The position numbers were made by a program, and so were the translations under genes. The notes beneath the pieces were generated by a model that searched no databases, had not been told where the DNA came from, and saw only the letters and a program-made list of their open reading frames with translations. A stretch of DNA of 35,257 nt from Gammaproteobacteria bacterium (GTDB lineage: Bacteria; Pseudomonadota; Gammaproteobacteria; Pseudomonadales; Azotimanducaceae), in assembly GCA_009839505.1 (NCBI GenBank), contig VXPO01000112.1, positions 1-35,257 on the forward strand, given 5' to 3'. This document shows, in pieces, positions 22,481-35,257 of the stretch; position 1 is the stretch's first letter; every line of letters begins with the position of its first letter.

Positions 22481-22510
22481 GGATGAACAGTGCTTCGGAG
22501 TAAGCCGACT

Positions 22511-22516
22511 ATTGTA
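22511..22516 (-). promoter_or_regulatory. Candidate -10 element for gyrA
   Basis: On the minus strand TACAAT (one mismatch to TATAAT) would place the start of transcription near 22504, giving gyrA a leader of about 24 nt. No good -35 hexamer was found. It lies back to back with the mtaD -10 in a 57-nt divergent gap, so the two promoters must overlap. Confidence 0.5.
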
Positions 22517-22525
22517 GCACGGACG

Positions 22526-22531
22526 TATAAT
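22526..22531 (+). promoter_or_regulatory. Consensus -10 element directly before the mtaD start
   Basis: A perfect TATAAT ends 6 nt before the mtaD ATG. Usual -10 to +1 spacing would start the RNA at or next to the A of the ATG, which implies a leaderless mRNA. This agrees with the absence of a Shine-Dalgarno there. The -35 region is unremarkable. Confidence 0.55.
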
Positions 22532-22537
22532 CCGCCC

Positions 22538-23887
22538 ATGTCCGATCCTCCCGCCGAATCGACGTCCGGCACCTGTTCGGAGAGCGCCGACGTGGTGCTC
22601 TCGCCGCGCTACCTGCTGCCCGTCGCACCGGCCAACCGGGTGCTCGAGGGAGTCAGCGTCGCGCTTCGCGACGGTCGGGTCGCGTCCCTGGGTCCGCATG
22701 ACGAAGTGGTCGCGAACCACCCGCGCGCAGACCGCGTCACGCTCGACCGACACCTCCTGATGCCGGGTCTGGTCAACGCCCACGGCCACCTGGCGATGAC
22801 CCTGCTGCGCGGCCTCGGCGAGGCACAGGCCCTCGAGGCCTGGCTCGCCGAGACCATCTGGCCGATGGAGGCCCGTTGGATCGACGCCGAATTCGTGCGC
22901 GACGGCACACGCCTCGCGGTCGCCGAGATGGTCGCCTGCGGAACCACGACGGCGGCGGATATGTACTACTTTCCCGAGACTGCGGCGCTGGTCTGCCGGG
23001 AGGCGGGATTCCGCTTGCAGGCGGCGTTTCCCCTGATCAGCCAGCCGAACCCCTATTCCACGGGATTCGACGACTGTCTCACCAAGGGACTCGCGCTCCG
23101 CGACCGATTCCGCGACGACGACCTGGTCACCACCTGCTTCGGTCCCCACTCGGCGTACGCCGTCGGGGACGAGCATCTGCGCAAGGTGGCCACGCTCGCC
23201 GACGAGGTCGATGCGGACGTGCACATCCACCTGCACGAGACCCAGGCCGAGGTGGACGACGCGTTGCGCACCCACGGCGGCACCTGGATCAAGGTGCTCG
23301 ATGTCCTCGGGCTCTTGAACGAGAAGCTCCAGGCCGTGCACATGACCGCACTCACGGATGCCGAGATCGAGCTGGTGGCGGAACGGGGTGTGCGCGTGAT
23401 CCACTGCCCCCACTCCAACATGAAGCTCACGAGCGGCGTCTGCCCGGTGACGAAGCTGCTCGACGCCGGCGTGACGGTGGGACTCGGCACCGACGGCGCG
23501 GCCTCCAACAACGGTCTAGACCTGTTTGCCGAGGCACGCCTGGCTTCGCTCCTGGCCAAGGCCACGGCCGCCGACCCGAGCCTGCTTCCGGCGGCCGACA
23601 TGGTCGAGATGGCGACCCTCGGCGGCGCGCGCGCCCTCGGTCTCGCCCATCGCATCGGGTCCATCGAGGTCGGCAAATGCGCGGACCTGGTCGCCGTCGA
23701 CGTGGATCACCCGTCCATGCAGCCGCTGCACGACCCGCACGCGCAGCTCGTCCACGCTGCTGCCGGGGCGCGAGTCACCCACACCTTCGTCAACGGCCGC
23801 TGCGTCTACGAAAACGGCACTTGGCCCACCCTCGACATCGACGAGACCCGGGCTCGCGCGGCTCACTGGGGCAGCCGTCTCTCGTAG
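22538..23887 (+). CDS. mtaD: 5-methylthioadenosine / S-adenosylhomocysteine deaminase
   Basis: This amidohydrolase-superfamily enzyme deaminates S-adenosylhomocysteine, 5'-methylthioadenosine or related nucleosides and so removes methyltransferase by-products. That fits its place before the methyltransferase gene ubiG. The 449-aa protein has metal ligands H82 and H84 in NAHGHLAM, the HIHLHE segment at 229-234 with HETQAE, and D319 in GTDGAASNN. It keeps the SRYLLPV-like N-terminal strand (here SPRYLLPV) and the C-terminal composite-domain strands. The start MSDPPAEST is preceded by a TATAAT box instead of a Shine-Dalgarno. Possible upstream start codons lie before that promoter. The last 29 codons are duplicated downstream as a fragment. 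Substrate preference within the family cannot be fixed from sequence alone. Confidence 0.92.
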
Positions 23888-23899
23888 AGCCCCAAAGCC

Positions 23900-23918
23900 G
23901 TCCCCCCGTAAAGGGGAC
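23900..23918 (+). terminator. Hairpin after mtaD, possible terminator
   Basis: GTCCCC and GGGGAC pair around a 7-nt loop, 12 nt past the mtaD stop. The duplicated copy is at 24229-24247. The left arm is preceded by AGCCCCAAAG, which also begins the composite repeat at 34.9 kb. There is no T-run, so termination is uncertain. Confidence 0.35.
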
Positions 23919-24000
23919 ATCCACCCTTCGGCAAAAAAGGGACACCCACCCTGGCCCGAATATCCCGATCCGCCTGCGGGGTGCGTATCCCCATTCGGTC

Positions 24001-24125
24001 GTAGGGTGGATGTCCCAATTCGGTCGTAGGGTGGATGTCCCAATTCGGCCGTAGGGTGGATGTCCCGATCCGGCCGCAGGGTGGATGTCCCGATTCGGCC
24101 GCAGGGTGGATGTCCCGATTCGGCC
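24001..24125. repeat. Five-unit 25-nt tandem array (GGGTGGATGTCCC core)
   Basis: Five adjacent 25-nt units start at 24001, 24026, 24051, 24076 and 24101. Each contains GGGTGGATGTCCC followed by an AATTCGG-type spacer. A degenerate unit (23976-24000) precedes them. Further upstream two units in the opposite orientation (cores GGGACATCCACCC at 23914 and GGGACACCCACCC at 23939) keep the same 25-nt phase. As 25 is not a multiple of three, all frames cycle through one peptide pattern, which argues against coding. Confidence 0.85.
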
Positions 24126-24129
24126 GCAC

Positions 24130-24216
24130 TGCGTCTACGAAAACGGCACCTGGCCCACCCTCGACATCGACGAGACCCTGGCCCGCGCGGCCCACTGGGG
24201 CAGCCGTCTCTCGTAG
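24130..24216 (+). pseudogene. Duplicated 3' fragment of mtaD
   Basis: These 87 nt repeat the last 28 codons and stop of mtaD at 329 nt distance. There is no start and no link to the catalytic domain, so the fragment is not expected to make a product. Of four differences from the functional tail, three are synonymous and one changes Arg to Leu. Confidence 0.8.
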
Positions 24217-24444
24217 AGCCCTAAAGCCGTCCCCCCGTAAAGGGGACATCCACCCTTCGGCAAAAAAGGGACACCCACCCTGGCCCGAATGTCCCGATCC
24301 GCCTGCGGGGTGCGTATCCCCATTCGGTCGTAGGGTGGATGTCCCGATCCGGCCGCAGGGTGGATGTCCCAATTCGGCCGCAGGGTGGATGTCCCAATTC
24401 GGTCCACAATTCGGTCCAACAGGGTGGATGTCCCGATTCGGTCC
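24130..24444. repeat. Second unit of the 329-bp duplication, decayed at its right end
   Basis: This unit aligns to the first copy without gaps through 24404, then loses register. It has three intact 25-nt array units (24330-24404), a 16-nt irregular spacer, and one more GGGTGGATGTCCC core at 24422. The reverse-oriented cores recur at 24243 and about 24268. The remaining sequence to the ubiG start holds only degenerate pieces such as GGGGGACACCCCC. Confidence 0.75.
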
Positions 24445-24498
24445 AATTCGGTCGATGCGTTTGGGGGACACCCCCGGGGTGGTAGGCTTCCATCCGAC

Positions 24499-25221
24499 AT
24501 GACGAAACCGCGCGAAACCATGATCAACGTCGACGCCGACGAGGTCGCCAAGTTCGAGGCCCTAGCGCACCGCTGGTGGGACGCCGACGGCGACTTTCGC
24601 GCGCTGCACGACATCAACGCCCCGCGGGTGGACTACATCGTGCGGCGTTGCGCAGGACCGATCGAGGGCGTTCGCGTGCTCGACGCCGGCTGCGGCGGCG
24701 GACTTCTCACCGAGGTGCTCGCCGACCTCGGTGCCCACGTCACGGGAATCGACGCGGGGGAAGCGCCGTTGGCGGTTGCCCGTCTGCACGCGGCGGAGCG
24801 CGGCGTCGAGGGGATCGAATACGTCAAGGCGACGCCGGAGAGCTTTCTCGACACCGGACCGGGCGAGTTCGGCTTGGTCACCTGCCTTGAGACCTTGGAG
24901 CATGTGCCCGACGTGGCGTCCACGGTTGAGGCGCTGGCGGAGCTGACCGCCCCGGGTGGCGACGTCTTCCTCGCCACCATCAACCGCACCCCCAAGGCGT
25001 TCGCCCTCGCCATCGTCGGTGCCGAGCACGTGCTCAACCTCCTGCCCAAGGGCACCCACACCTACGAGAAGCTGATCCGGCCGGCCGAACTCTCCCGCGC
25101 ATGCCGGGATGCCGGCTTGACTGTCTTGGACATCGTCGGCGTCACCTACAATCCCTTCACCCGGCGATGCCGCTTCGGCGCCGACGTCGGCGTCAACTAC
25201 ATGCTGCATGCCCGGCGCTAG
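24499..25221 (+). CDS. ubiG: UbiG ubiquinone biosynthesis O-methyltransferase
   Basis: UbiG carries out both O-methylations of ubiquinone synthesis using S-adenosylmethionine. The 240 aa equal the E. coli length. The N-terminal signature FEALAHRWWDADGDFRALHDIN is conserved, motif I reads LDAGCGGGLLTEVL with D62, and the later ETLEHVPD and INRTPKAFALAIVGAEH stretches are typical. The start MTKPRETMINVD was chosen because upstream in-frame sequence (open to 24364) is array DNA. A second ATG 7 codons in is possible, and neither has a Shine-Dalgarno. The leader consists of the duplicated repeat region, so ubiG expression could be affected by it. mtaD upstream would clear the S-adenosylhomocysteine produced. 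Confidence 0.95.
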   Translation: MTKPRETMINVDADEVAKFEALAHRWWDADGDFRALHDINAPRVDYIVRRCAGPIEGVRVLDAGCGGGLLTEVLADLGAHVTGIDAGEAPLAVARLHAAERGVEGIEYVKATPESFLDTGPGEFGLVTCLETLEHVPDVASTVEALAELTAPGGDVFLATINRTPKAFALAIVGAEHVLNLLPKGTHTYEKLIRPAELSRACRDAGLTVLDIVGVTYNPFTRRCRFGADVGVNYMLHARR

Positions 25222-30719: not shown

Positions 30720-30740
30720 GGGCGACCCTTGTGGTCGCCC
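30720..30740. repeat. GGGCGACC-family hairpin upstream of yheS (first copy)
   Basis: GGGCGACC and GGTCGCCC form a perfect 8-bp stem around CTTGT. It lies in the 215-nt divergent gap between yciO and yheS. The orientation is opposite to the second copy 38 nt downstream, so the two copies could also pair with each other. Confidence 0.6.
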
Positions 30741-34929: not shown

Positions 34930-35105
34930 AGCCCCAAAGGGACATCCACCCTTCCGCGAAAAGGGACATCCACCCTTGGGGGAAAAAGGGACATCCACCC
35001 TTGGGGAAAAAAGGGACATCCACCCTTGGGGGATTAGGGACACCCACCCTTGGGGGAGGGTTTGTGGTCGAGACGGGCGACCACAAGGGTTCGCCCTACG
35101 GAGAG
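34930..35105. repeat. Composite repeat, copy 1: five GGGACATCCACCC units plus hairpin
   Basis: The unit begins AGCCCCAAAGGG. Cores GGGACATCCACCC lie at 34939, 34963, 34988 and 35013, followed by the variant GGGACACCCACCC at 35037, with spacing 24-25 nt and G-plus-A-rich spacers. It ends with the 9-bp hairpin TTGTGGTCG/CGACCACAA (35062-35086) and TCGCCCTACGGAGAG. It lies directly upstream of the DUF418 gene. Confidence 0.85.
35075..35101. repeat. GGGCGACC-family palindrome in composite repeat copy 1
   Basis: GGGCGACCACAAGGGTTCGC followed by CCTACGG matches the copies at 8735, 30720 and 30778 and forms an imperfect GGGCGA/TCGCCC hairpin. It competes with the overlapping TTGTGGTCG/CGACCACAA stem. 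Confidence 0.55.
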
Positions 35106-35257
35106 AGCCCCAAAGGGACATCCACCCTTCCGCGAAAAAGGGACATCCACCCTTGGGGGAAATAGGGACATCCACCCTTGGGGGAATAGGGACACCCACC
35201 CTTGGGGGAGGGTTTGTGGTCGAGACGGGCGACCACAAGGGTTCGCCCTACGGAGAG
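35106..35257. repeat. Composite repeat, copy 2: one array unit shorter, reaching the window end
   Basis: This copy repeats the preceding element with a 176-nt offset. Cores are at 35115, 35140, 35165 and the variant at 35189, so one 25-nt unit is missing. The hairpin arms are at 35214-35222 and 35230-35238, and the palindromic family member at 35227-35253. It ends in CGGAGAG at the last base, exactly where copy 1 would lead into a new copy. Confidence 0.85.

Follow-up and report, generated by a model that had tools for sequence, protein, structure and literature searches.

A head-to-head 25-nt repeat array upstream of ubiG probably derives from a mobile REP/TIR-like repeat with a cognate HUH/Y1 transposase of subclass 2.3 character

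The interval between a hydrolase gene and ubiG in the window analysed here, a stretch of 35,257 nucleotides from the draft genome of a gammaproteobacterium, is occupied by short tandem units which share one core and carry it in both orientations. This raises the question of what kind of element these arrays represent and how they arise. A sequence-only reading of the locus had considered an RNA structure, a replication-slippage repeat or a protein-binding array. Fold-back and local tandem growth, as implied by the first two of these, are supported; the genome-wide occurrence of the core beside a transposase gene had not been foreseen.

A recount of the array before ubiG yielded nine GGGTGGATGTCCC cores on the + strand (starting at 24004, 24029, 24054, 24079, 24104, 24333, 24358, 24383 and 24422) and four cores on the opposite strand, just as had been stated before. 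The latter are GGGACATCCACCC at 23914 and 24243 and a G variant, GGGACACCCACCC, at 23939 and 24268. All 13 cores lie between 23914 and 24434 without an assembly gap (Table 1). With a degenerate core and at most one mismatch, 22 matches were obtained in the window versus 0.15 expected, the maximum among 100 shuffles being 1. The 25-nt phase that all runs had been said to share does not exist, as the offsets of successive blocks modulo 25 are 0, 15, 4, 19 and 8; in the window array, the 25-nt spacing holds only between units within one run. Overlooked at that time was also the tandem duplication of the block before ubiG: in a self-BLAST, two copies offset by 329 bp align over 282 columns at 94.7%, and the final 94 bp of the upstream gene were copied as well, with 9 mismatches. 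The possibility of an assembly artefact, named in the sequence-only reading as a point that would speak against its idea, finds no support before ubiG: the window is free of N, and the sequence differences between both copies make an assembly duplicate seem unlikely for this block. The upstream gene had been named mtaD, and its profile match is NF006549, a TRZ/ATZ-type hydrolase. An Rfam search of positions 23500-24600 returned a single chance microRNA match (27 bits versus a gathering score of 268).

Table 1. Genes, duplicated blocks and runs of cores in the window.
Feature	Position	Strand	Remark
TRZ/ATZ-type amidohydrolase gene, upstream of the array	22490..23887	+	NF006549 E 3.1e-167, above cut-off; Amidohydro_1
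Tandem duplication, copy 1 (hydrolase gene 3' end and array)	23794..24073	+	self-BLAST
Inward-left run	23914..23951	-	two cores 25 nt apart, the second being the G variant
Right run	24004..24116	+	five cores 25 nt apart
Tandem duplication, copy 2 (hydrolase 3' fragment 24123-24216 and array)	24121..24402	+	
Copy 2, left run	24243..24280	-	two cores 25 nt apart
Copy 2, right run	24333..24434	+	three cores 25 nt apart, one more after 39 nt
ubiG	24499..25221	+	TIGR01983 UbiG E 1.2e-74, above cut-off
Second array, partly duplicated (152-bp unit)	34939..35201	-	nine cores in one orientation; adjoins scaffold gap

The array at 34.9-35.26 kb, for which the same core had been claimed, does contain it nine times. 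This second array is less certain than the block on the ubiG side, as the window runs exactly up to a 10-N scaffold gap. Such 10-N gaps are present within several arrays of the assembly with identical sequence on either side, so that array lengths are uncertain in this draft. Gaps of about 10 N were noted inside the arrays of L021, L016, L018, L011, L088 and L098, and contigs start or end within an array in L044, L045, L046 and L019. Gaps inside arrays together with contig ends in arrays indicate that the repeats break this assembly.

The sequence-only reading had regarded absence of the 13-mer from the rest of the genome as an argument against an element of its own kind. This objection falls away. 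A count over the entire genome (4,699,526 bases, 181 contigs) gave 134 exact copies of GGGTGGATGTCCC on one strand and 125 on the other, 259 in total, and 0 for the reversed control; GGTGGGTGTCCC occurs in 136 copies (reversed control: 2). The stretches fetched for a closer look, which were chosen around cores, contain 232 of the 259 exact cores, and the other 27 lie outside. If up to two mismatches are permitted, these fetched stretches hold 341 cores in 74 clusters. Neighbours of the same orientation are exactly 25 nt apart in 165 of 218 cases, the next commonest step being 24 (7 times), and 42 of 49 switches in orientation are head-to-head, all within the same stretches, where 31 of the 74 clusters display a simple <<<>>> layout. 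The head-to-head centre often measures only 10 nt, with 23 nt from core start to core start.

Spacers were compared in a set of 67 runs, one per locus and strand. They follow a weak pattern (majority YTTTYSSCCGHA), of which the last A is present in 67 of 67 runs, and 61 of the 67 spacers are distinct. Mean spacer identity amounts to 0.91 within runs (68 pairs) versus 0.54 between runs (2211 pairs), and to 0.49 for the two sides of one array (21 pairs), which supports local tandem growth. The array sites are many unrelated loci, each with private spacers. That spacers are alike within a run and unlike between runs suggests that one element spread and was then expanded and homogenised locally. 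Short core-less copies of the spacer (e.g., AATTCGGTCC) are repeated at the outer end of some runs, as if growth sometimes omitted the core; examples are located at 24396-24455 of the window, in L043 from 2613 and in L044 from 163. The gene context is indicative only, as the codon-based gene caller is rough (it missed the upstream hydrolase gene, and it placed the window array between divergent genes and the second array within a gene): of 60 clusters, 20 were assigned to convergent, 20 to co-directional and 6 to divergent genes, 6 were intragenic and 8 at an edge. Cores inside called genes, a similarly indicative figure, numbered 27 of 288, while 75% of the sequence was called coding.

Single units fold no better than shuffled sequences (13-mer: z 0.68; 24-mers: z -0.39 and -0.89), whereas all three head-to-head centres examined fold strongly (z -6.24, -4.34 and -5.53). 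For the 224-nt window array as DNA a z of -4.25 was obtained, and the 611-nt spacer between the hydrolase gene and ubiG is predicted to fold back strongly as RNA (z -5.1, 20 shuffles). The hairpin potential which had been ascribed to the opposite orientations is therefore supported by strong predicted folds at both levels.

A candidate for the cognate enzyme is encoded in L019 (C29:115257-116567), where inverted core arrays bracket an intact reading frame for a 318-aa HUH/Y1 transposase, with three inverted cores on its left and four outward ones on its right, up to the contig end. Profile matches of the protein are NF047646, the REP-associated tyrosine transposase, with E 6.6e-5 and Y1_Tnp with E 0.004. 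Neither match reaches its cut-off, the protein also stays below that of REP_Tyr_transpos, and it was absent from the matches of a Pfam Y1_Tnp search of its own genome. Its motifs are NHYH, WQ and YDDLNP, with an HUH-Y distance of 103 aa. A comparison of the transposase profile with the sequences of solved structures revealed no relative (best E 0.68). A structure model was made for L118, a relative which is 53% identical in the best segment: the model (mean pLDDT 79.9) has a sole PDB match under E 0.001, namely 4ER8, the RAYT of E. coli in complex with a REP hairpin (E 1.3e-4, TM 0.34/0.56, rmsd 9.6, 10% identity), followed by the IS608 and ISDra2 enzymes at E 0.035 and above. As far as this model goes, L118 has the predicted HUH/Y1 fold of IS200/IS605-like transposases. 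The genome contains further genes of the Y1 type. Two near-identical 238-aa ones (L009:1183-1899 and L010:1183-1899, minus strand), each near a contig end, weakly match REP_Tyr_transpos. Another one, with NHFH (L203, G000:C32:29945-30373), is incomplete because the contig ends within it; it shares 42% identity with the 318-aa gene and has a GCGGATGTCCCC site upstream.

Relatives of the 318-aa gene are present in 26 of 38 genomes. A first flank sample comprised 26 of 30 fetched loci, L069-L072 being left out as fragment matches. In these 26 loci, GGACA[CT]CCA / TGG[AG]TGTCC sites point outward 35 times and inward 0 times upstream; downstream, the respective numbers are 42 and 4. Outward cores were found in 16 loci and are missing from 10. 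For a second sample, loci were fetched from named genomes by protein alone, with the flanks ignored, and the best 80 of 575 confirmed stretches were analysed; the two samples overlap by at least three shared genes (L117 = L048, L118 = L074, L120 = L075). HUH and Y motifs are present in all of these best 80 of 575 loci, at an HUH-Y distance of 103-113 (median 110), NHYH in 61 and YVDLNP in 74. Among the same best 80, [AG]GACA[CT]CCA was detected upstream in 41 and, as reverse complement, downstream in 36, which amounts to both sides in 25 loci, at least one side in 52 and no core by this rule in 28. The ratio of outward to inward sites was 70:3 upstream and 63:3 downstream (inward cores in three loci each), versus 10:10 in 157,313 bases of distal flanks of the best 80 of 575. 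The nearest upstream core is located at a median of 85 bp (quartiles 77-101.5; the 41 loci with an upstream core among the best 80). A motif-free search in these best 80 of 575 returned GGACACCCA as the top upstream 9-mer with a downstream reverse complement (13 loci; at most 2 loci in 20 mononucleotide shuffles). Some of 19 loci inspected closely contain core variants, e.g., GGACAGGCACA in L133, and in others nothing was evident.

The exact 13-mer itself is rare outside this genome, with 0-3 copies in each of the other 37 genomes. Judged by eye and without gene calls, those in L031-L037, L039 and L041 are seemingly lone sites in coding sequence; those in L038, L040 and L042 have a repeat-like appearance. 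L042 (G037:C342:86-131), from a genome of another family, exhibits two exact GGGTGGATGTCCC 33 nt apart in a TTAATATG-rich stretch. A search of viral contigs for two exact cores at 25 nt yielded 0 stretches.

Within the genus, GGTGGGTGTCCC is present in 24-136 copies in all seven genomes with a close gene and in 0-1 copies in eight of the nine others (Fisher p 0.0014, 16 genus genomes), where a close gene is one with E below 1e-90, a line that was drawn after the table had been seen. The exception is G001, an 81% complete genome with 61 copies, in which no more than a fragment of the gene is present, close to the end of a contig. In G005, G008, G009 and G015, which harbour more distant relatives of the gene, there are 0-1 copies. 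In these assemblies, repeat number thus follows the close transposase with the one exception of G001. Sites without array could also be identified. The hydrolase gene is recognisable upstream of ubiG in 11 of 14 loci from relatives, and the 9-mer core is absent from all 12 inspected regions upstream of the relatives' ubiG (the 14 loci minus L104 and L116); in some of these regions (L112-L114) both genes nearly touch. At a second locus, L078, the array in G000 follows an apparent stop codon, and the aligned flanks are about 330 nt apart versus 119 nt in G010, in which no core was found between them; G001, with a run of N and other sequence, is excluded from this comparison.

A second, palindromic repeat, CCCTTGTGGTCGCCC, which often follows GTAG and resembles a canonical GTAG REP, occurs in 149 exact copies in this genome; among the 38 genomes of the search, 13 contain it, and these belong to one and the same genus. 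In the window it is located at 30726, 30781, 35079 and 35231, it was duplicated along with the second array, and it is also found in L012, L030, L078 and others. The 238-aa genes of L009 and L010 may be its partner. CCCTTGTGGTCGCCC is unrelated to the core and ignores the split between core and gene, with 90 copies in G005 and 64 in G009.

How these repeats relate to described systems was assessed from excerpts of the papers cited. According to Quentin et al. (2018; PMC6006769), TnpAY1 subclass 2.3 is characterised by the HUH motif NHYH, the Y motif YVDLNP, the W motif WE, a median HUH-Y distance of 110 aa (58-67 in most subclasses) and a median length of 325 aa, its core has insertions of 10 aa and 55 aa, and it is common in Chromatiales and Alteromonadales. 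By motifs, distance and length, the 318-aa enzyme fits this subclass: it shares NHYH, a Y-x-D-L-N-P motif, an HUH-Y distance of 103 aa and a length above 300 aa, but differs in having WQ in place of WE. The same authors state that an automatic plus manual search revealed no REP-like sequences beside genes of subclasses 2.1 and 2.3, whereas here an oriented core flanks the gene. Our own search of open-access literature found no link between subclass 2.3 and any repeat, and papers matching the literal core strings were, by title and start of the abstract, not on bacterial repeats. Groups of RAYTs are reportedly treated by Bertels, Gallie and Rainey in 2017.

The TIRYT/TIRtron systems of Di Nocera's group (PMC3733652), in which terminal inverted repeats flank Y1 transposase genes, are similar in that inverted repeats unrelated to GTAG REPs flank the gene and in that some TIR families are dispersed as dimers or clusters. 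TIRs often share GGGGWSAS, the nearest published motif, which resembles GGGACAC here; GGGGACAC would fit it and occurs in relatives (L119 GGGGACACCTACC), while GGGGACAT of the window misses the last letter. Unlike the enzyme with subclass 2.3 features described here, TIRYTs mostly belong to subclass 2.1, where Quentin et al. place 20 of 26 described ones (PMC6006769), and 25-nt runs with private spacers were not found among the TIRYT/TIRtron features in the excerpt of PMC3733652. With the REPtrons of RAYT/TnpAREP the present system shares inverted, genome-abundant repeats that bracket the gene, a copy number that follows the gene, arrays as in BIMEs, and gene 3' ends caught in them (PMC2817692). 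Nunvar et al. (2010; PMC2817692) proposed RAYT-driven array growth and reported rayt 3' ends caught in BIMEs, to which the copied 3' end of the hydrolase gene is similar. The repeats are nevertheless not canonical REPs, as they lack a fixed GTAG head and single units have no fold. In RAYT/REP systems, by contrast, there is a GT[AG]G head and the unit is a stable palindrome, and BIMEs alternate strictly, whereas runs of one orientation meet head to head here (PMC2817692). All 67 runs have an A immediately before the core, but this A follows a T in just 27, which sets the upper limit for runs with GTAG at 27. Bertels and Rainey (2011; PMC3116915) argued that the inverted pair is the mobile unit and described tandem clusters including flanking sequence. 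A head-to-head pair that folds into a hairpin and such clusters are also features of the present repeats; unlike in REPINs, the centre is often only 10 nt and each arm is multiplied in 25-nt steps (PMC3116915).

Taken as sequence features, there is a genome-wide repeat with head-to-head 25-nt arrays and a bracketed transposase gene, a core which recurs in the same orientation next to related genes of many Gammaproteobacteria, orthologous sites without array and, within the genus, a repeat number linked to the close transposase. It is quite probable that the arrays arose by local expansion of a non-autonomous mobile repeat of REP/TIR-like type and high copy number, and that the cognate enzyme is the HUH/Y1 transposase with subclass 2.3 features. 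We infer transposition of the repeat by the 318-aa enzyme, which, by analogy with the work on TnpAREP, RAYT and REPINs, would move head-to-head pairs; TnpAREP enzymes process cognate single-stranded REPs in vitro in a strand-specific manner (PMC8266576). The enzyme would recognise the core on single-stranded DNA, probably via fold-back of a head-to-head pair, cut beside it and insert the pair into single-stranded intergenic DNA. Subsequent slippage, or repeated cutting and priming, might lengthen the runs by 25 nt at a time and duplicate larger blocks together with flanking DNA; this would explain why the spacers of one run resemble each other and those of different loci do not. In the window, a 2+5 array would have come first and the duplication at the 329-bp offset afterwards. 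Any effect on ubiG would come from the putative hairpin-rich leader.

Growth of the arrays could be plain slippage, and the uniform spacers within runs as well as larger duplications with flanks attest that local tandem growth happens, while scaffold gaps inside several arrays fit unstable repeats. A view in which replication-slippage satellites account for everything, so that the array beside the transposase gene is a coincidence, appears unlikely nonetheless, because slippage does not carry one core to dozens of loci and leaves both the oriented core beside related genes in other genera and the link with the presence of the gene unexplained. Plain slippage on arbitrary flanks would be expected to give a step which varies between loci. 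Even less can be said for a functional RNA or terminator element, i.e., an array retained in the ubiG leader for the sake of hairpins that act on transcription or on the stability of the message. The strong predicted folds and the assignment of only 6 of 60 clusters to divergent-gene intervals versus 20 to convergent ones (by a rough gene caller with known errors) would suit it, but no Rfam family fits, the relatives' ubiG genes lack the array in all 12 upstream regions inspected, and arrays lie at many unrelated loci with private spacers. This makes such an element very unlikely.

The mobile repeat itself might be the work of another Y1-type enzyme of the genome, such as the 238-aa one. Two near-identical copies of its gene, together with a truncated Y1-type gene that runs into a contig end, speak for this idea, yet only the 318-aa gene was seen bracketed by the core, and the L009 and L010 loci are without core, though both stop at a contig end; we regard this assignment as highly improbable. 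Least probable of all is a binding array for a host DNA-binding protein of the nucleoid, of replication or of segregation. Ordered binding would go well with a core that recurs unchanged every 25 nt, and for BIMEs binding by several host proteins is described (PMC2817692). However, 0-3 exact cores in each of the other 37 genomes are hard to reconcile with an essential binding site, and the core follows the transposase gene instead. Mobilisation of the repeat by the 318-aa enzyme, the reading preferred here, also has points against it, namely the 28 of the best 80 of 575 and the 10 of 26 related genes without outward core (the more distant genus relatives of G005, G008, G009 and G015 among them), the copies in G001 beside a mere gene fragment, the E-value line set with the table in view, the sub-cut-off profile scores of the gene and the existence of other Y1-type genes in the genome.

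What appears to be new is a repeat that goes with a transposase type for which no partner repeat had been reported, although the repeat is of the known REP/TIR-like kind. The outward core beside 52 of the best 80 of 575 such genes represents a candidate substrate for enzymes of subclass 2.3. A unit that has neither a hairpin nor a fixed GTAG head suggests why the core was missed in 2018. The 25-nt runs with private spacers may record the growth of arrays after insertion, a point that is open for BIMEs and REPINs. It is conceivable, at slightly less than an even chance, that the enzymes of subclass 2.3 function as a RAYT group and have a repeat class to themselves. Its core, TGG[AG]TGTC[CT], points away from the gene and would be recognised either linearly or in a head-to-head pair, without a fold of the lone unit. 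If this is true, the system builds 25-nt arrays with locus-private spacers in this lineage, and the enzyme would itself bring about their growth.
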